Assembly: GCA_958296055.1 (NCBI GenBank)
Contig: CATQHS010000001.1
Location: 880,277 to 944,276, forward strand
Length of the DNA: 64,000 bases
Reading direction: 5' to 3'
From: an uncultured Acidimicrobiales bacterium
GTDB lineage: Bacteria; Actinomycetota; Acidimicrobiia; Acidimicrobiales; Aldehydirespiratoraceae
Within the stretch, counting starts at the first letter, position 1. The number at the start of each line of letters is the position of its first letter. Of this stretch, positions 1,340 through 12,169 are shown piece by piece. The notes below the pieces were generated by a model. That model was not told where the DNA came from. It ran no database searches and worked only from the letters and a program-made list of their open reading frames with translations. The position numbers and the translations under genes were made by a program.

Positions 1340-2449
1340 TCAGGCGAGTACGGCGAGGTCGTGGTCGACGGTGTTCATCGGGTCGGGCCCGGTCTCGCCG
1401 GCCACCACGATGTCCTCGAGCCGAGCCCCCCACTGCCCGGGCACATAGATGCCGGGCTCGATGGAGAAGGCGTTGCCGACGGCCAGCGGGGCCGGGTTGT
1501 CGGCGCCGATGTAGGGCTCCTCGTGGGCCTCCACCCCGATCCCGTGCCCGGTCCGGTGCACGAAGTACTCGCCGTAGCCGGCGGCCTCGATGACGGAGCG
1601 GCCAGCCCGGTCCACGTCGCAGGCCGGGACGCCCACGACGGCTGCGGCCGTCGCCGCGGCCTGGGCCTCGAACAGCACGTCGTAGAGCCGACGGAACTCG
1701 GCCGGCGGCGGGCCGGTGTACACACAGCGGGTGATGTCGGAGCAGTACCCCACCCCGTCGGCCCCGACCAGGGTTCCGCCGTAGTCGCACAGCACCACCT
1801 CGCCCGCGGAGATGACCCGGTCGGAGGGCTCGTGGTGGGGGCTGGCCGCGTTCGCTCCGGCGGCCACGATGGCGAAGTTCACCCGGTGGTGCCCCTCGGC
1901 CAGGATCTGGCGGCCCAGCTCGGCCGACACCTCGGCCTCGGTCCGGCCCACCAGCTCGATCTCGCCGCTCTGGAGCCGGGCCGCGATGCGGTCCACCGCC
2001 GCGCCCGCGGTCCGGAGCCGCTCGATCTCGTCGGAGTCCTTGACCGACCGGATGGGGGCGGTCACCTCCGAGGCCCGGCGCCATTCGACGCCGGGGAGGC
2101 GGCGGCCCAGCTCGATCAGGAACAGGGCCCAGGTCTGGTCCCCGATGGCCGCCACCGGCGCCAGGCCGACCAGATCGGCCACCATGCCCACCGGGTCGGC
2201 GGTGTCGGCCCAGGTCCTCAGCTCGAAGACGTCGGGCCGCTCCGTCACCCTGGGCACCTCCAGCCGGGGCACCACCAGAGTGGCCTCGGCCTCCGCGGGG
2301 ACCACCAGCATGGTGAGGCGCTCCAGGGGCATGGCCTCATAGCCGCAGAAGTAGGGCAGGTCGGCGCCCACCGACAGCAACATGACGTCGACGCCCTGCT
2401 CGGCCATCAGGGCCCGGGCCCTCTCCAACCGCTCCGCGAACACAACCAC
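1340..2449 (-). CDS. M24 family metallopeptidase (Xaa-Pro peptidase-like)
   Basis: This 369-residue protein has the creatinase N-terminal domain (about 1-130) followed by the pita-bread M24 domain. All five metal ligands of the family are in place: Asp222 in CDYGG, Asp238 in SDITR, His302 in GHGIG, Glu331 in IEPGIY and Glu345 in RLEDI. The expected activity is cleavage of an N-terminal residue before proline in dipeptides or short peptides, in the cytoplasm, with two divalent metal ions. Length and layout match bacterial PepQ/YpdF-type enzymes. It lies 4 bp from the stop of the lipBA gene in the same direction and is probably co-transcribed with the lipoate/E2 genes upstream. Exact substrate preference (dipeptidase or aminopeptidase P) cannot be told from sequence. 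Confidence 0.9.
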   Translation of the reverse strand: MVVFAERLERARALMAEQGVDVMLLSVGADLPYFCGYEAMPLERLTMLVVPAEAEATLVVPRLEVPRVTERPDVFELRTWADTADPVGMVADLVGLAPVAAIGDQTWALFLIELGRRLPGVEWRRASEVTAPIRSVKDSDEIERLRTAGAAVDRIAARLQSGEIELVGRTEAEVSAELGRQILAEGHHRVNFAIVAAGANAASPHHEPSDRVISAGEVVLCDYGGTLVGADGVGYCSDITRCVYTGPPPAEFRRLYDVLFEAQAAATAAAVVGVPACDVDRAGRSVIEAAGYGEYFVHRTGHGIGVEAHEEPYIGADNPAPLAVGNAFSIEPGIYVPGQWGARLEDIVVAGETGPDPMNTVDHDLAVLA

Positions 2450-2452
2450 AGC

Positions 2453-4258
2453 CTAGAGCCGGGCCGCCCCGCCAGCGGAGACCGCGGCCGTGGCCTGGCG
2501 GGCGTGGGCCGCCCCTTCAGCCGTTACCGCGGCCTGGCCGACCCCGCCGACACCTTCAGCCGTTACCGCGGCCTGGCCGACCCCGCTTACACCCTCGGCC
2601 GTGGTCGCGGCCTGGCGGGCGTGGTAGCTGGAGCGGGTGAGCGGCGACGACTCCACATGGGCGATGCCCAGCGACTCCCCCACCCGCTTCCAGCGGGCGA
2701 AGTCGTCGGGCGCCCACCACCGGGCCACGGGCAGGTGGCGCTCCGAGGGGCGCAGGTACTGGCCGATGGTAACGATGTCGGCGCCGGCCGAGTGCAGGTC
2801 GGCCAGCGTCTGGACGATCTCTTCGTCGGTCTCGCCCATCCCCGCGATCAGCGAGGACTTGGCGGTGAGCCCGGCCTCTTTGGCCCGGGCCAGCACCGAC
2901 AGGCTGCGGGCGTAGGAGGCCTGGGGCCGCACCGCCCGCTGGAGCCGGGCCACCGTCTCGATGTTGTGGTTCAACACGTCGGGCCGGGCCTCGAACACGG
3001 TCTGAAGCGCCGCCTCCGAGCCGCCCAGGTCGCTGATCAGGGTCTCGACCCGGGCGGCGGGCAGCCGATCCCGCACGGCTTCCACCGTGGCGGCCACCGC
3101 GGCCGCTCCCCCGTCGCTGAGGTCGTCGCGGGCCACCATGGTGACCACCACGTGCTCCAAGCCCATCCGGGCCGCGGCCTCGGCCACCCGGGCCGGCTCG
3201 CCGGGGTCGGGCGGGGCCGGCTTGCGGGTGTCGATCAGGCAGAAGCCGCAGGCCCTGGTGCACCGGTCGCCCAGGATCATGAAGGTGGCGGTGCCGTCGT
3301 TCCAGCACTCCGAGATGTTGGGGCAGCCGGCTTCCTCGCACACCGTCACCAGGTCCAGGTCTCTCAGGGTGGAGCGGACCCGGCGGAAGGTCGGCCCGGT
3401 GTCGAGGCGGACCTTCATCCACTCCGGCTTGCGCGACCGGAAGGCGATCTGATCGTCGGCGGCGACGCCGGCAGAGGCCAGCCGGACCTGCAAGCGGTCT
3501 CGGGTCCCGGCCTCGGCCTGGCTCCGGTCTGCGGCCGCTCGGGTGAACGGGGCCAGGTCGCCGGGGGCCACTCGGTGGGCGGTGTCGGCCCGGTCGATGC
3601 GACCGTGGGGGGCCCACTCGGCGGCGGCCCGCTCCGCCACCAAGTCCACCACCTCGGCCATGGAAACGTCGAGGCCCTCGGCCGCCAGCGACGTGACCGC
3701 CATGCCGGCGACGCCGCAGGGCACGATCCGCCCGAACCACTTCAGGTCGGGGTCGACGTTGAGGGCGAACCCGTGCATGGACCGGGCCCTGGACAGCCGC
3801 ACCCCGATGGCCGCCACCTTGCGGGGGCGGGGTCCGGCCGGGTCGACCCACACGCCGGGGTGGCGGTCCACCCGGCCCGCGTCGAGCCCCAGGCCGGCCA
3901 GCACGTCGATGAGCACCTGCTCCACCCCGCCGACGTAGGCGGCGGTGTCGGCCATCCCGCCCCCCCGCTTGCCGGGGACGGTGAGGATCGGGTAGCCGAC
4001 GAGCTGGCCCGGCCCGTGGTAGGTGACCTCGCCGCCCCGGTCGGTTTCGGCCACCTCGGCCCCGAGGGCCTCGACGTCGACCAGCAGGTGCCGCCGCTGG
4101 CCCCGCCGGCCCAGGGTCACCACGTGGGGGTGCTCCAGCAGCAGCAGATGGTCGTCGCTACAGCGGCGGTACAACCGCCGCTGCAGGGCCAGGGCGTCGC
4201 GGTAGGCGACCCGCCCCAGCCAGCGGATGCGCAGGGTCGGGTCCGACCGGGCGGTCAG
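2453..4258 (-). CDS. Fused octanoyltransferase-lipoyl synthase (LipB-LipA)
   Basis: One open frame encodes LipB followed by LipA. The LipB part has the RGGEVTYHGPGQLVGYP motif, the catalytic Lys in RKVAAIG and the Cys in IVPCGV. The LipA part has the auxiliary cluster motif CEEAGCPNISEC, the radical-SAM motif CTRACGFC and the terminal RSSYHA. The protein should move octanoate from acyl carrier protein to E2 and insert the two sulfurs. In-frame sequence homologous to the LipB N-terminus (LRIRWLGRVAYRDALALQ) continues upstream of the TTG at 4174, and no ATG, GTG or TTG exists there. I therefore place the start at a CTG (4258) that overlaps the E2 stop as CTGA. The C-terminus ends in 13-residue tandem repeats. 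The fusion is clear; the start codon is inference. Confidence 0.88.
   Translation of the reverse strand: MTARSDPTLRIRWLGRVAYRDALALQRRLYRRCSDDHLLLLEHPHVVTLGRRGQRRHLLVDVEALGAEVAETDRGGEVTYHGPGQLVGYPILTVPGKRGGGMADTAAYVGGVEQVLIDVLAGLGLDAGRVDRHPGVWVDPAGPRPRKVAAIGVRLSRARSMHGFALNVDPDLKWFGRIVPCGVAGMAVTSLAAEGLDVSMAEVVDLVAERAAAEWAPHGRIDRADTAHRVAPGDLAPFTRAAADRSQAEAGTRDRLQVRLASAGVAADDQIAFRSRKPEWMKVRLDTGPTFRRVRSTLRDLDLVTVCEEAGCPNISECWNDGTATFMILGDRCTRACGFCLIDTRKPAPPDPGEPARVAEAAARMGLEHVVVTMVARDDLSDGGAAAVAATVEAVRDRLPAARVETLISDLGGSEAALQTVFEARPDVLNHNIETVARLQRAVRPQASYARSLSVLARAKEAGLTAKSSLIAGMGETDEEIVQTLADLHSAGADIVTIGQYLRPSERHLPVARWWAPDDFARWKRVGESLGIAHVESSPLTRSSYHARQAATTAEGVSGVGQAAVTAEGVGGVGQAAVTAEGAAHARQATAAVSAGGAARL
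2475..2630. repeat. 39-bp in-frame tandem repeat in the 3' end of lipBA
   Basis: Units with a 39-bp period begin near 2514, 2553 and 2592, with a more degenerate unit near 2475. The 2514 and 2553 copies are almost identical. The period is 13 codons, so the repeat stays in frame and adds copies of a motif like TAEGVGGVGQAAV after the end of the conserved LipA domain. The repeat is Ala/Gly-rich and has no recognisable function. Confidence 0.8.
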
Positions 4259-5799
4259 CGGACTTCGGCCTCCCAGTCGCGGGTCTCGATGATCTCCTTG
4301 ACCCGGTGCAGGAAGGCGGCGGCGTAGGCGCCGTCGAAGGCCCGGTGGTCCCAGGCCATGGCCAGCACCCCCACCGAGTGGATGGCGATCGACTCGTTGC
4401 CGTAGCCGTCGGTGACCACCACCGGCTTGCGGGACACCCCGTCGGTGCTCAGGATGGCCACCTGGGGCTGGTTGATGATCGGGAACTGCATCATGGTCCC
4501 GTACTGCCCGGCGTTGGTGAGGGTGAAGGTGCCGCCGGTCAGGTCGTCGAGGCCGAGCTGCTTGGTGCGGGCCCGGGCGGCCAGGTCGACGACGTCCCGG
4601 GCGATCTGGCGCAGGCGCTTGCCGTCGGCGTTTTTGATCACCGGGGCCAGCAGGCCGTCGAAGTCGATGTCCACGGCGACGGCCAGGTTGACCGAGCCGT
4701 GCACGATCAGCTCACCGGCGCCGAAGGTGGCGTTCAGGTGGGGGTACTCCCGCAGGGCGTCCACCACCGCCCGGCAGATGAAGGGCAGGTAGGTGAGGCT
4801 GAACCCCTCATCGGCCTTCCAGGTCGCCTTGAGCGACCGGCGGACCTGCTCGACCCCCTCGTAGTCGATCTCGATGGCGGTGAGCACGTGCGGGGAGGTC
4901 TGCTTCGACATCACCATGTGCTCGGCCGTGCGCCTGCGGATGTTGTTGAGCGGCACGACCCGGTCGCCGGGCCGGACCGCAGGCGGACGGGCAGGGACCC
5001 GAGCTGGCGGCACCGGGGCCGGGGCCGGGGGCGGGGGCTCGGAGGGGGCCGCGGGAGTCGGGCTGGCTTCGGGTCCGGGCGGGGAAGTAGGGGTCAGGTC
5101 GGGCCCGGCTGAAGCCGGGGCCGCAGCAGGCGCGGGGGCTTCGGGCACCGGAGCGGGAGCCTCAGGCACCGGAGCAGGGGCTTCGGGCGCCGCAGCGGCA
5201 GGCGTCGCGGCAGCCGGGGCGGGGGCGGCCGAGGCCCGGGCCCGGATGACCGCCTCCACATCGGCCCGGGTGACCCGCCCGCCCAGGCCGGTCCCGACGA
5301 TGGCGTCGGGGTCCAGATCGTTCTCGGCTATCAGCCGCCGCACCACCGGCGACAGCACCTTGGCCATGACCCCGGCCGCGGCGGCTTCGGAGGCCGCTAG
5401 CTCAGGCGCCGGTTCGGGAGGCGGGGGCTCGGGGACCGGCGGCACCGCAGGCGGGGGCTCGGGGGCCGAGACTGGCGCCGACGCCATCGCCGGTTCAGGA
5501 GCCGGGGGCTCGGGGGCCGGGGCCGGCTCGGAGACCGGGGCAGACTCGGGCGCGGGGGCCTCGCCGGGCGAGCCGACCCGGGCCAGGACCTGGCCCACCT
5601 CCACCACGTCGCCCTCGCCGGCCAGGATCTCGGTCACCACCCCCGCGGCCGGGGAGGGCACCTCGGAGTCGACCTTGTCGGTGGAGATCTCGAAGAGGAT
5701 TTCGTCGACGCCCACGGGGTCGCCGACCTGCTTGAACCAGCGGATGATCGTGCCCTCGGTGACGGTCTCGCCCAACTGGGGCATGGTTACATCGACCAC
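4255..5799 (-). CDS. Dihydrolipoamide acyltransferase (E2) of a 2-oxoacid dehydrogenase
   Basis: The protein starts with one lipoyl domain (lipoyl-lysine in STDKVDSE, about residue 42). A long Pro/Ala/Glu-rich linker follows, then a peripheral subunit-binding domain (about 145-185) and a second Pro/Ala linker. The catalytic acetyltransferase domain follows, with the HRAFDG motif (HxxxDG) near the C-terminus. It transfers the acyl group from E1 through lipoyl-lysine to CoA and forms the core of the complex. I chose the GTG at 5799 because GGAGG lies eight bases upstream. Its neighbours are lipoyl dehydrogenase upstream and the lipoylation enzyme downstream, and an AceE gene lies 3.6 kb away. 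This suggests pyruvate dehydrogenase, though a 2-oxoglutarate or shared E2 role cannot be excluded. Confidence 0.92.
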   Translation of the reverse strand: MVDVTMPQLGETVTEGTIIRWFKQVGDPVGVDEILFEISTDKVDSEVPSPAAGVVTEILAGEGDVVEVGQVLARVGSPGEAPAPESAPVSEPAPAPEPPAPEPAMASAPVSAPEPPPAVPPVPEPPPPEPAPELAASEAAAAGVMAKVLSPVVRRLIAENDLDPDAIVGTGLGGRVTRADVEAVIRARASAAPAPAAATPAAAAPEAPAPVPEAPAPVPEAPAPAAAPASAGPDLTPTSPPGPEASPTPAAPSEPPPPAPAPVPPARVPARPPAVRPGDRVVPLNNIRRRTAEHMVMSKQTSPHVLTAIEIDYEGVEQVRRSLKATWKADEGFSLTYLPFICRAVVDALREYPHLNATFGAGELIVHGSVNLAVAVDIDFDGLLAPVIKNADGKRLRQIARDVVDLAARARTKQLGLDDLTGGTFTLTNAGQYGTMMQFPIINQPQVAILSTDGVSRKPVVVTDGYGNESIAIHSVGVLAMAWDHRAFDGAYAAAFLHRVKEIIETRDWEAEVR

Positions 5800-5839
5800 T
5801 GATCCTGCCTCCAAAACCTCTCCGGGAGGCTACCGGACC

Positions 5840-7249
5840 TCAGCCGTGCAGGGATCGGCCGGTGAGCGAAAGCACGCTCTCGCCGAACAGCTCGCTCAGG
5901 GTGGGGTGGGGCTGGATGAAGGCGGCCACCTCGTCCACGGTTGCCTCCCAGTTGACGGCCAGATACCCCTGCCCGAGCTGCTCGGTCACCCAGGGCCCGG
6001 CCATGTGGACGCCCAGGACCCGGCCGCCGGTCCCGTCGGGGCACCGCTCGGCGATCACCTTCACCACCCCCTCGGTGTCGCCCACGATCATGGCCCGCCC
6101 GTTGCCGACATGGCGATGCGATGAGGTCACCACCTCGAAGCCGGCGGCGGCGGCCGATTCCTCGGTGTGGCCGGCGAAGGCCACCTCGGGATGGCAGTAG
6201 ATGCACCACGGCGTGCCCAGGCGGTCGAGCGGCTCGGGGTCCTCGCCCAGGATGTCCTTGACGGCCAGCATCCCCTCGGCGAAGGCGGTGTGGGCGAGTT
6301 GGGGGGTGTCGATGAGATCGCCCACCGCCCACACCCCGGCCTCGCCGGTGCGGCACCGGCCGTCGACGGCCACGAAGCCCCGCTCGTCGACCGCCGCCCC
6401 GGTGGCCTCCAAGCCGAGCGAGCCGCTGCGGGGCCGCCGCCCCACCGAGACCACCACCACGTCCACGTCCGCCGTCTGGCCGTCGCCGTAGGAGACGACG
6501 GCGCCGGAGCCGTCGGGGCGGGGTTGGTGGCCGTGAACCTTCACCCCGGCCCGCACGGTGATGCCCCGCTTGCGGAACGACCGCTGCACCACCGATGCCA
6601 CGTCCGCGTCGCAGCCCGCCAGGATGCGGGGCAGCGCCTCCAAGACGGTGACCTCCACCCCCAGGTCGCCCATCATCGAGGCGAACTCGCAGCCGATGGC
6701 ACCCCCGCCGATCACCGCCGCGGAGCGGGGCAGCGCCTCGACCGACAGCAGCTCGTCGGAGGTCATCACCACGGTCCCGTCCACCTCGAAGCCGGCGATG
6801 GTGCGGGGGGTCGACCCGGTGGCCAGGATCACCGCCCCGGCCTCCAGGGTCGTCCGCTCGCCGGAGCGGCCCGCTACCGCCACCGCGGGGCCGGGCCTGA
6901 GCGACCCGGTCCCCTCGTACACCGTCACCTTGCGCCGGTTAAGCAGCGAGGACAGGCCGCCGGTCAGCCGGTCGATGACCTGTTGCTTGCGGGCCATGGT
7001 CGTCGTCCAGTTCAGGGCGGGCGGCCCGGCCTCCACCCCGAACTGGCCGGCCCGGGCCACGGTCCTGAAGACCGAGGCGGTCTCGAGCAGCTCCTTGGCC
7101 GGGATGCAGCCGACGTGCAGGCAAGTGCCGCCCACCCGGCCCATCTCCACTAGGCCCACATCGAGGCCGGCGGCGGTGCCGTAGAGGGCGGCCGCGTACC
7201 CGCCGGGCCCGCCCCCCACGACGATCACATCATGGGCGGTGTCGGCCAT
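5840..7249 (-). CDS. lpdA: Dihydrolipoyl dehydrogenase (E3)
   Basis: The 469-residue flavoprotein has the FAD-binding GGGPGGYAAA motif at the N-terminus, the redox-active disulfide in GGTCLHVGCIPAK, a second Rossmann motif for NAD (GGGAIGCEFA) and the C-terminal dimer-interface HPTLSE with the active-site His-Glu pair. It reoxidises dihydrolipoyl groups on E2 and passes electrons to NAD+. Length is typical. It is 40 bp upstream of the E2 gene on the same strand and so is the likely first gene of an lpd-E2-lipBA-M24 operon. No residue is missing that I can see. Confidence 0.95.
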   Translation of the reverse strand: MADTAHDVIVVGGGPGGYAAALYGTAAGLDVGLVEMGRVGGTCLHVGCIPAKELLETASVFRTVARAGQFGVEAGPPALNWTTTMARKQQVIDRLTGGLSSLLNRRKVTVYEGTGSLRPGPAVAVAGRSGERTTLEAGAVILATGSTPRTIAGFEVDGTVVMTSDELLSVEALPRSAAVIGGGAIGCEFASMMGDLGVEVTVLEALPRILAGCDADVASVVQRSFRKRGITVRAGVKVHGHQPRPDGSGAVVSYGDGQTADVDVVVVSVGRRPRSGSLGLEATGAAVDERGFVAVDGRCRTGEAGVWAVGDLIDTPQLAHTAFAEGMLAVKDILGEDPEPLDRLGTPWCIYCHPEVAFAGHTEESAAAAGFEVVTSSHRHVGNGRAMIVGDTEGVVKVIAERCPDGTGGRVLGVHMAGPWVTEQLGQGYLAVNWEATVDEVAAFIQPHPTLSELFGESVLSLTGRSLHG

Positions 7250-8819: not shown

Positions 8820-9401
8820 TTAGAAGTCGGGGTCGGGCGGGGCGGAACTGGGTGAGGTGAGGCCGGAGTTCGACCGGCGGGTCAGGGCGGCGTCCACCGC
8901 GAGCTGGTCGGCGATCTCGTTCCACTGGTCGCCGCCGTGGCCCTTGACCCAGCGCAGCTCGATCTCGTCGGAGCGGTCCAGGTAGAGGCCGATGAGCGGC
9001 TCCCACAGATCCCGGTTGGCCACCGGCTTGCCCGCGGAGTTGCGCCACCCCTTGCGCAGCCAGGACCGGTACCAGCCGTCCCGGAAGCAGTTGACGACAT
9101 AGGTGGAGTCCGACACCACCTCCACCGGCCCGGCCAGCGCCGTCAGCGCCTCCAGCACCGCCTGCAGCTCCATCCGCTGGTTGGTCGTCTCCGGGGCGAA
9201 GCCGCAGGCCCACGGCCCGGCCGGCGCCACCCATGCCCATCCGCCCGGTCCGGGGTTCCCCCGACAGGCCCCGTCGGTGTACACCACCGTCCGCCCCGTC
9301 CGGCCCGCCCCGTCCCTCACCGTCCGGCCCGGCCCGCCCAACCCGGTCGAGCCGGGGGAAGCCGAGCCGCCCGAGCCCCAGGAATCTGCCACGCCGACCA
9401 T
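8820..9401 (-). CDS. rnhA: Ribonuclease HI
   Basis: The type 1 RNase H core starts at about residue 38 with YTDGACRGNPGPGGW (first catalytic Asp). The second acidic residue is in RMELQAV, the third in VSDSTYVVN and the fourth in WNEIADQLAVDAA, so the DEDD set is complete. The enzyme cleaves RNA in RNA-DNA hybrids. The first 37 residues are low-complexity Gly/Ser/Arg. A start nearer the domain is possible, though the ATG at 9401 gives the longest frame. It is divergent from aceE with only 47 bp between start codons. Confidence 0.92.
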   Translation of the reverse strand: MVGVADSWGSGGSASPGSTGLGGPGRTVRDGAGRTGRTVVYTDGACRGNPGPGGWAWVAPAGPWACGFAPETTNQRMELQAVLEALTALAGPVEVVSDSTYVVNCFRDGWYRSWLRKGWRNSAGKPVANRDLWEPLIGLYLDRSDEIELRWVKGHGGDQWNEIADQLAVDAALTRRSNSGLTSPSSAPPDPDF

Positions 9402-9448
9402 GGTCGCGCTTAGCGGCTACGGCGGCGGGGACCTACCATGCCCCTCAG

Positions 9449-12169
9449 ATGACGGAGGACTTCACCCGGCAGTTGCCCGATCTGGACCCGGCCGAGACCA
9501 AGGAGTGGATCGACTCCCTCGACGCCATCGTCTCGGCCCAGGGCCGGGCCCGGGCCCGCTTCATCGTGGCCAAGCTGCTCCAGCGGGCCGACCAGCTCCA
9601 GGTGGGGGTGCCCCCCTCCACCTACACGCCCTACATCAACACCATCCCCGCCTCCGAGCAGCCCTTCTTCCCCGGCGACTACCACGTCGAGTGGCGGATC
9701 CGGTCCTTCATCCGCTGGAACGCGGCGGCCATGGTCATCCGGGCCAACAAGGCGGCCGACGGCATCGGCGGGCACCTCTCCACCTTCGCCTCCTCGGCCT
9801 CCCTGTACGAGGTGGGGTTCAACCACTTCTTCAGGGGCAAGGACGGCGGCCTGGCCGGGGACCACGTCTACTTCCAGGGCCACGCCGCCCCCGGCGTGTA
9901 CGCCCGGGCCTACCTGGAGGGGCGCCTCAGCGAGCGCCAGCTCGACAACTTCCGCATGGAGGTGGGCGGCGACGGGCTGTCCGGCTACCCCCACCCCCGC
10001 CTGATGCCCGACTTCTGGGAGTACCCGACCGTGTCGATGGGGCTGGGGCCGATCCACTCCATCTACCACGCCCGGTTCAACAAGTACCTGCACAACCGCC
10101 GGATCGAGAACACCGAGGGCAGCACCGTGTGGTGCTTTTTGGGCGACGGCGAGTGCGACGAGCCCGAGACCCTGGGGGCCATCGCCCTAGCCGGCCGCAA
10201 CGACCTCGACAATCTCAAGTGGGTGGTCAACTGCAACCTCCAGCGGCTGGACGGGCCGGTGAGGGGCAACTCCAAGATCATCCAGGAGCTGGAGGGGGTG
10301 TTCCGGGGGGCGGGCTGGAACGTCATCAAGGTGATCTGGGGCTCCAAGTGGGACGAGCTGCTGCTGGGCGACCTCGACGGGGTGCTGCTGGCCAAGATGA
10401 ACCAGACCGTGGACGGCGAGTACCAGCGGTACGCGGTGGAGTCGGGGGCCTACATCCGGGACCACTTCTTCGGCCCCGACCCCCGGCTGCGCAAGCTGGC
10501 GGAGCACCTGTCCGACCACGAGCTCAAGATGCTGCCCCGGGGCGGCCACGACTACCAGAAGGTGTACGCGGCGTTCAAGGCGGCCAGCGAGGTCCGGGGC
10601 CAGCCCACGGTCATCTTGGCCAAGACCATCAAGGGATGGACCCTGGGGCCAGGGTTCGAGGGCCGCAACGCCACCCACCAGATCAAGAAGATGACCAAGG
10701 CCCAGCTCTTGGAGCTGCGGTCTCGCCTGCACATGGAGGACGAGATCAACGAGGCCGACCTCAACGACGGCATTCCGCCCTATTACCGGCCCCCGCCCGC
10801 CTCGGCCGAGCACCGCTACATGATGGAGCGCCGCCGGGCCCTCGACGGCTCGCTCCCCAAGCGGGTGATCCGGGACCGCCGGCCTCTGTCGCTGCCCGCC
10901 GAGACGCCCTTTTTGGACATGAACAAAGGCTCGTCGGGCCGGGCCGTGTCCACCACCATGGCCTTCACGTCGCTGCTGCGGGACCTGATGCGCGACCCGG
11001 CCCTCGGCCCCCGGGTGGTGCCGATCATCCCCGACGAGGCCCGCACCTTCGGCATGGACTCGCTGTTCAGGGAGTTCCGCATCTACGCGCCGAGGGGCCA
11101 GCTCTACGAGCCGGTGGACCACGACCTGCTGCTGTCGTACTCGGAGTCCTCCGACGGCCAGATCCTCGAGGAGGGCATCACCGAGTGCGGTTCGCTGGCG
11201 AGCTGGATCGCGGCGGGCACCTCATATGCCAACCTCGGGGTGCCGATGGCGCCCTTCTTCTCCTTCTACTCCATGTTCGGCTTCCAGCGGGTGGGCGACT
11301 CGATCTGGGCCGCGGCCGACGCCCGGGCCCGAGGCTTCCTCATGGGTGCCACCGCGGGCCGGACCACGCTGCCGGGCGAGGGCCTCCAGCACCAGGACGG
11401 CCACAGCCACGTGCTGGCCTCCACCGTCCCGGCCTGCGAGGCCTACGACCCGGCCTTCGCCTACGAGCTGGGCGCCGTCATCCGCGACGGCCTGCACCGG
11501 ATGTACCCGCCCGCCGCAGCCGACGGGGAGGACGTCTTCTACTACGTCACCATCTACAACGAGAACTACGAGCAGCCGCCCCGGCCCGATCACGTCACCG
11601 ACGGCGACATAACCAGCGGCCTCTACAAGTGGGACGACGGCCCCGGCGGACGGCGGCACCGGGCCACGGTCTTGTTCTCGGGCCCGGCGGTGGGGGCGGC
11701 CCGGGCGGCCCAGGCCATGCTGGCCGAGCACCACGACGTGTCGGCCGAGCTGTGGAGCGCCACCTCCTACAAGCGGCTCCGAGCCGACGCCTTGGACGTG
11801 GAGCGCCGCAACCGCCTCAATCCCTCCGGCGAGCCCGAGGTTCCGGCGGTGACCCGCAAGCTGGCCGACTCCGAGGGTCCGATAGTGGCCGTCACCGACT
11901 ACATGGCCCTGGTGCCGGACCAGATCGCCCGCTTCGCCCCCCGCCCGATGCACGTGCTGGGAACCGACGGCTTCGGGCGCTCCGACACCCGGGAGAGGCT
12001 GCGGGGCTTCTTCGAGGTGGACGAGGCCCATGTGACGGTGGCGGTTCTGTCCGCGCTGGTCGACTCCGGCGAGCTGGCCCGGGCCGACCTTCAGGCGGCC
12101 ATCGACCGCTACGGCCTAGACCCCGGCCGCCCCGACCCGGCCCACCCCGAGACCGGCGCAGTCCGCTGA
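9449..12169 (+). CDS. aceE: Pyruvate dehydrogenase E1, homodimeric type
   Basis: The 906-residue protein matches homodimeric AceE throughout. It begins MTEDFTRQLPDLDPAETKEW and carries the thiamine-diphosphate motif GDGECDEPE about 35 residues before NCN. The GHAAPGVYARAYLEG and RTFGMDSLFREFRIY segments are characteristic. It decarboxylates pyruvate and acetylates lipoyl-E2. I chose the ATG at 9449 because all conserved sequence starts there and the frame upstream overlaps rnhA with no family similarity. The E2, E3 and lipoylation genes on the other side of the yfcH and rnhA genes make the complex nearly complete in this window. No residue of the motif is missing. Confidence 0.96.
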   Translation: MTEDFTRQLPDLDPAETKEWIDSLDAIVSAQGRARARFIVAKLLQRADQLQVGVPPSTYTPYINTIPASEQPFFPGDYHVEWRIRSFIRWNAAAMVIRANKAADGIGGHLSTFASSASLYEVGFNHFFRGKDGGLAGDHVYFQGHAAPGVYARAYLEGRLSERQLDNFRMEVGGDGLSGYPHPRLMPDFWEYPTVSMGLGPIHSIYHARFNKYLHNRRIENTEGSTVWCFLGDGECDEPETLGAIALAGRNDLDNLKWVVNCNLQRLDGPVRGNSKIIQELEGVFRGAGWNVIKVIWGSKWDELLLGDLDGVLLAKMNQTVDGEYQRYAVESGAYIRDHFFGPDPRLRKLAEHLSDHELKMLPRGGHDYQKVYAAFKAASEVRGQPTVILAKTIKGWTLGPGFEGRNATHQIKKMTKAQLLELRSRLHMEDEINEADLNDGIPPYYRPPPASAEHRYMMERRRALDGSLPKRVIRDRRPLSLPAETPFLDMNKGSSGRAVSTTMAFTSLLRDLMRDPALGPRVVPIIPDEARTFGMDSLFREFRIYAPRGQLYEPVDHDLLLSYSESSDGQILEEGITECGSLASWIAAGTSYANLGVPMAPFFSFYSMFGFQRVGDSIWAAADARARGFLMGATAGRTTLPGEGLQHQDGHSHVLASTVPACEAYDPAFAYELGAVIRDGLHRMYPPAAADGEDVFYYVTIYNENYEQPPRPDHVTDGDITSGLYKWDDGPGGRRHRATVLFSGPAVGAARAAQAMLAEHHDVSAELWSATSYKRLRADALDVERRNRLNPSGEPEVPAVTRKLADSEGPIVAVTDYMALVPDQIARFAPRPMHVLGTDGFGRSDTRERLRGFFEVDEAHVTVAVLSALVDSGELARADLQAAIDRYGLDPGRPDPAHPETGAVR

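Follow-up and report, generated by a model that had tools for sequence, protein, structure and literature searches.

A probable bifunctional LipB-LipA enzyme, fixed in Acidimicrobiia and, in this lineage, apparently started at a CTG overlapping the upstream E2 stop codon

Most work on LipB and LipA treats them as separate proteins and, to our knowledge, the route by which octanoylated domains reach LipA is still an open question. In the window (the whole 64,000-nucleotide stretch analysed here), a single minus-strand reading frame appeared to hold both enzymes and to begin at a CTG codon. Do the two halves form one genuine enzyme, and where does its translation start? Considering all the results below, we regard it as very likely that this gene, lipBA, encodes a genuine bifunctional LipB-LipA enzyme that is fixed in Acidimicrobiia and that, in this lineage, starts within a CTGA overlapping the E2 stop codon. 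The locus comprises the following features:

1340..2449, minus strand: Xaa-Pro peptidase-like gene, which begins just past the lipBA stop
2453..4258, minus strand: lipBA, fused octanoyltransferase/lipoyl synthase, 601 aa counted from the CTG; stop codon TAG at 2453-2455
2456..2584, minus strand: low-confidence C-terminal tail, residues 559-601, holding most of a 39-bp tandem repeat array (2514-2616)
2585..3508, minus strand: LipA domain, residues 251-558, with auxiliary-cluster Cys307/312/318, radical SAM Cys333/337/340 and RSSY at 542-545
3509..3568, minus strand: low-confidence hinge between the domains, residues 231-250, of varying length among relatives
3575..4234, minus strand: LipB domain, residues 9-228, with a Lys147/Cys181 dyad and RGG and HGPGQ motifs
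4256..4258, minus strand: CTG start codon, overlapping the E2 stop TGA (4255-4257) as CTGA
4269..4273, minus strand: GGAGG ribosome-binding-like motif in the 3' end of E2, 10 nt before the CTG
4255..5814, minus strand: E2 of a 2-oxoacid dehydrogenase, SucB_Actino-like though below the cut-off of that model, a lipoyl acceptor, directly upstream of lipBA
5840..7249, minus strand: dihydrolipoyl dehydrogenase (E3), upstream of E2

The LipB half scored 135.2 bits against NCBIfam TIGR00214 (cut-off 83.55; residues 34-194) and 187.4 bits against PRK14345 (cut-off 155), while the LipA half scored 361.6 bits against NCBIfam TIGR00510 (cut-off 310.25; residues 274-551). The Pfam domains follow in the order LplA-B_cat, LIAS_N, Radical_SAM, and by sequence the nearest solved structures are chain 5exi (LipA) and chain 1w66 (lipoyltransferase), both from M. 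tuberculosis. With both NCBIfam models matched over their cut-offs and the checked catalytic motifs present, the original prediction of LipB and LipA in one chain is confirmed. A search of the source genome (3.3 Mb, 95% complete) for a separate lipA or lipB, which had been proposed as a check, returned neither: lipBA is the only LipB and the only LipA over the cut-off, and two further LipA-profile matches reached 20-25 bits, far under it. The C-terminal tail extends beyond the point where the matches of most relatives stop, and the tandem repeat in this region (2.6 copies) codes for VTAEGV.GVGQA-like units at the end of the LipA tail.

One could suppose that a sequencing or assembly error has merged two distinct genes, lipB and lipA. 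Most of the collected fused loci do come from metagenome-assembled genomes, and the general error rate of such assemblies is the sole argument in favour of this explanation. However, when the fusion was searched for in related genomes, 151 distinct loci in Acidimicrobiia were found to carry both halves in one frame with zero stops between the domains, an arrangement far beyond chance. Since the join recurs in 151 distinct loci, we conclude that it is real, and the chance that an error produced it is negligible. The original prediction had also named a second observation that would speak against it, namely homologues kept apart by a stop codon in relatives; such stops were encountered only outside the class.

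The conservation of the fused protein is extensive. Full-length matches to the query occur in most genomes of the same order and of the class; the named relatives are Acidimicrobiia, and the nearest are Acidimicrobiaceae and Acidimicrobiia bins with 74-78% identity. The LipB Lys and Cys, the three auxiliary-cluster Cys (CX4CX5C), the three radical SAM Cys (CX3CX2C) and the RSS of RSSY are invariant in 151/151 loci, with Tyr in the last position of RSSY in 131. The RGG and HGPGQ motifs of LipB are likewise kept in all 151, save for one P to D replacement in HGPGQ. A LipA profile search of 197 class genomes gave 184 over the cut-off, and among the matches listed the frames are at least 541 aa long, except for contig-edge cases and one 5-kb contig (G165). 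This contig (G165:C83) carries a separate lipB-lipA pair, L147, which is 45% identical to the query and comes from a bin that also has a fused copy. We considered and rejected this pair as the class's own split gene, and read it as probable contamination or else a second copy.

Outside the class, the LipA and LipB matches in a sample of the phylum are separate. In seven loci (L148-L152, L157, L158) lipB is followed by lipA in the same frame, always with one or two stops between the domains, and in L167 the two genes are adjacent in different frames. The fusion thus looks like a class-wide derived trait, judging from these sequence comparisons. Because the outside-class pairs stay split by stops or by frame, a single origin from neighbouring genes, no later than the base of the class, is most likely; the loss of the stop between an adjacent lipB and lipA would have yielded the fused gene. 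A tree built by a fast method and rooted on the eight outside-class rows (L148-L152, L157, L158, L167) is consistent with a single origin, which it does not prove. The piece that precedes LipA in lipBA resembles the N-terminus of separate actinobacterial LipA proteins (L157, L158).

We then turn to the start of translation. The E2 gene ends in CGC TGA, and the LipB frame takes its CTG from the last base of CGC together with TG. The open frame of lipBA spans 752 aa, and the first ATG, GTG or TTG listed after the upstream stop is a TTG at 4174. Initiation there would delete the conserved LRIRWLGRVAYRDALALQRR segment, as anticipated by the original prediction, which had placed LipB N-terminal sequence upstream of any such codon. 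Gene finders that accept ATG, GTG and TTG alone would misplace the N-terminus of lipBA and cut into the LipB domain.

An NTGA overlap between the lipBA start and the E2 stop recurs class-wide; some lineages have ATGA or GTGA, and the source lineage has CTGA. The overlap is in phase in 83 loci, where N is most often C (52 loci), followed by G (20), A (9) and T (2). Among the 54 loci that lack a canonical start downstream of the E2 stop, 53 keep phase with the NTGA overlap; where such a start is present, the three phases account for 54, 18 and 9 loci. A group of 25 CTGA loci lacks any ATG, GTG or TTG from the E2 stop onwards, and three of them have a TTG slightly upstream, inside E2. The distance from the CTG to the LRIRW core in these CTG-only loci is 15, 24, 30, 33, 36, 42 or 72 nt and changed about eight times on the tree, always by multiples of three. 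A start at the CTG overlapping the E2 stop, as originally proposed, thus agrees with the phase and position kept in these 25 loci, and we consider it well supported at the level of sequence comparison. Of the 52 CTGA loci, 19 have GGAGG 10 nt before the CTG and another 15 have it 4 or 7 nt before, and in L015, L021 and L076 the lipBA frame opens just two codons before the CTG.

Part of the conservation of the CTG may come from E2 codon use, as its C doubles as the third base of the last E2 codon (mostly Arg CGC). The final residue of E2 differs among loci (Arg, His, Asn, Leu, Thr, Phe and others), whereas the third base of its codon stays C; since C makes up 51% of E2 third positions, this constancy is modest evidence when taken alone. 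The GC content by codon position in the CTG-to-core spacer (0.67/0.77/0.78) offers no discrimination. Several close relatives have a GTG or ATG shortly downstream of the CTG, so the CTG need not be the sole start in all of them. Four further lipBA loci (L095, L106, L166, L207) lack CTGA and also have no canonical start from the E2 stop onwards; three of them have a TTG upstream of the E2 stop, and L207 has CTG codons only. Functional CTG starts have been described in E. coli, at reduced rates, in a passage of PMC13068326 that cites Hecht et al. 2017.

In one alternative reading the fusion is real but another codon starts translation: the CTG in the LRIRW segment (4234-4232), a near-cognate ATC or ATT, or TTG 4174. 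ATG-started relatives indeed begin only a few residues before LRIRW (such as MSPLRIRWLG in L077 and L080), and initiation at 4234 would still yield a complete LipB. However, about half of the CTG-only loci have CTC, CTT, CTA, TTC or TTT in place of the LRIRW CTG, and this codon is not preceded by a ribosome-binding motif in the source genome, while TTG 4174 comes at the cost of conserved LipB sequence. Starting at either codon would moreover leave unexplained why the distance from the E2 stop to the core keeps its phase through some eight changes, and we regard this reading as improbable.

It is very improbable that, besides the single frame, a separate LipA is made from an internal start: a start codon with a strong ribosome-binding motif precedes LipA in 6 of the 151 loci, but these sites are not conserved in position and the source gene has none. 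Even less likely, to the point of being remote, is a -1 frameshift at the end of E2 that would give an E2-LipB-LipA chain. In the source genome the LipBA frame stays open deep into E2, and a -1 shift at CGC TGA would lead into this frame; on the other hand, inspection by eye revealed no slippery heptamer in the E2 end, several relatives have a LipBA frame that is closed immediately before the CTG, and in many relatives a separate ATG follows the E2 stop. A single fused product initiated at the CTG is therefore the reading that we retain.

An AlphaFold2 model of lipBA (28-sequence alignment) reached a mean pLDDT of 80.6 and a pTM of 0.83, with residues 231-250 and 559-601 below 50 pLDDT. Foldseek aligned the LipA half with M. 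tuberculosis LipA 5exk (target TM 0.91) and the LipB half with M. tuberculosis LipB 1w66 (target TM 0.85). The LipB catalytic region is separated from the first LipA Cys by 125 residues here and by 91 to 237 among relatives, with conserved pieces flanking a variable hinge. Because the hinge varies in length, this argues for LipB and LipA domains on a flexible tether rather than around a fixed channel, although the AlphaFold2 model alone leaves the relative placement of the domains unsettled.

In the known pathway, as outlined in a passage of PMC12246082, LipB shifts octanoyl from ACP to the lipoyl domain and LipA then adds two sulfurs. Judging from its motifs and profile matches, the LipB half of lipBA would accordingly transfer octanoyl from octanoyl-ACP to the lipoyl-domain lysine of E2, and probably also of the glycine cleavage H protein, and the LipA half would then insert two sulfurs into the same octanoylated lipoyl domain. 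The fusion would ensure 1:1 production of both enzymes and might raise the local concentration of octanoylated product near LipA, should proximity bring any benefit. A hand-over of substrate between the LipB and LipA sites is plausible, and both steps might take place on one docked E2. Translation would most likely begin at the CTG by termination-reinitiation, aided by the GGAGG within the E2 coding sequence. A weak CTG at the E2 stop could tie LipBA output to E2 at a low level, which would keep the catalytic protein well below its substrate. Reinitiation at non-canonical starts is touched on in a passage of PMC4648390, where the channel concerned was made in eukaryotic cells, and is not evidence here. 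We are doubtful of the boldest version of this model, a class-wide single processive enzyme that hands one lipoyl domain on from its LipB site to its LipA site, never letting go of it, and whose dosage, in a large lineage, is fixed by obligate reinitiation at the conserved CTG in the E2 stop overlap.

Compared with known systems, the LipB half resembles LipB proteins (TIGR00214, PRK14345; M. tuberculosis LipB, PDB 1w66) in its over-cut-off match, invariant Lys/Cys dyad and fold, but it is fused at its C-terminus to LipA and has a CTG start in the source lineage. The LipA half shares with LipA (TIGR00510, PRK05481; M. tuberculosis LipA, PDB 5exi/5exk) an over-cut-off match, both Cys motifs, RSSY and the same fold, whereas here it lacks an evident start of its own and forms the C-terminal half of a larger chain. 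Among NCBIfam fusion models, only LplA_LipA_fuse (NF053790, bifunctional lipoate-protein ligase/lipoyl synthase) matched the window protein. It likewise describes a natural fusion of an attachment enzyme with lipoyl synthase, but its N-terminal half is by name a lipoate ligase and not LipB; the window protein scored 337 bits against a cut-off of 800, through the LipA half alone (profile positions 330-605). The LplA-LplB lipoate ligase fusions described in a passage of PMC10332631 are also gene fusions within lipoate assembly, yet join two parts of one ligase instead of two successive pathway enzymes. We did not find a natural LipB-LipA fusion in the literature searched, where the fusions mentioned in the relevant passages of PMC10332631, PMC3917532, PMC12246082 and PMC3904984 are all of other kinds; the architecture may already be recorded in other databases. 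Such a fusion would offer a ready-made test of hand-over and of one enzyme serving several acceptors, and the conserved CTG would represent natural, phylogenetically replicated non-canonical initiation in bacteria.

The original claim that lipBA directly follows E2 holds in the window, by way of the CTGA overlap; in 135 of the 151 loci an E2 lies within 700 nt upstream. Further candidate acceptors encoded in the genome are another E2-like gene, a larger one that includes an E2-type catalytic domain, a short match to E2 and a single H protein. With several acceptors in the genome, one LipBA would have to serve them all unless an LplA-like gene relays. A second protein with an LplA/B catalytic domain is indeed encoded in the genome (L169, 1267-2148; G000:C1, about 3196576); it carries RRRSGGGAVYLD and GGRKIVGVSQ motifs and matches NCBIfam ligase models weakly. 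This LplA-like protein may act as a lipoate ligase or as a LipM-like transferase, and could share the attachment work with LipBA. Divergent from the E3-E2-lipBA cluster, a 978-aa ORF on the plus strand (9233-12169) reads by eye like an AceE-type pyruvate dehydrogenase E1.
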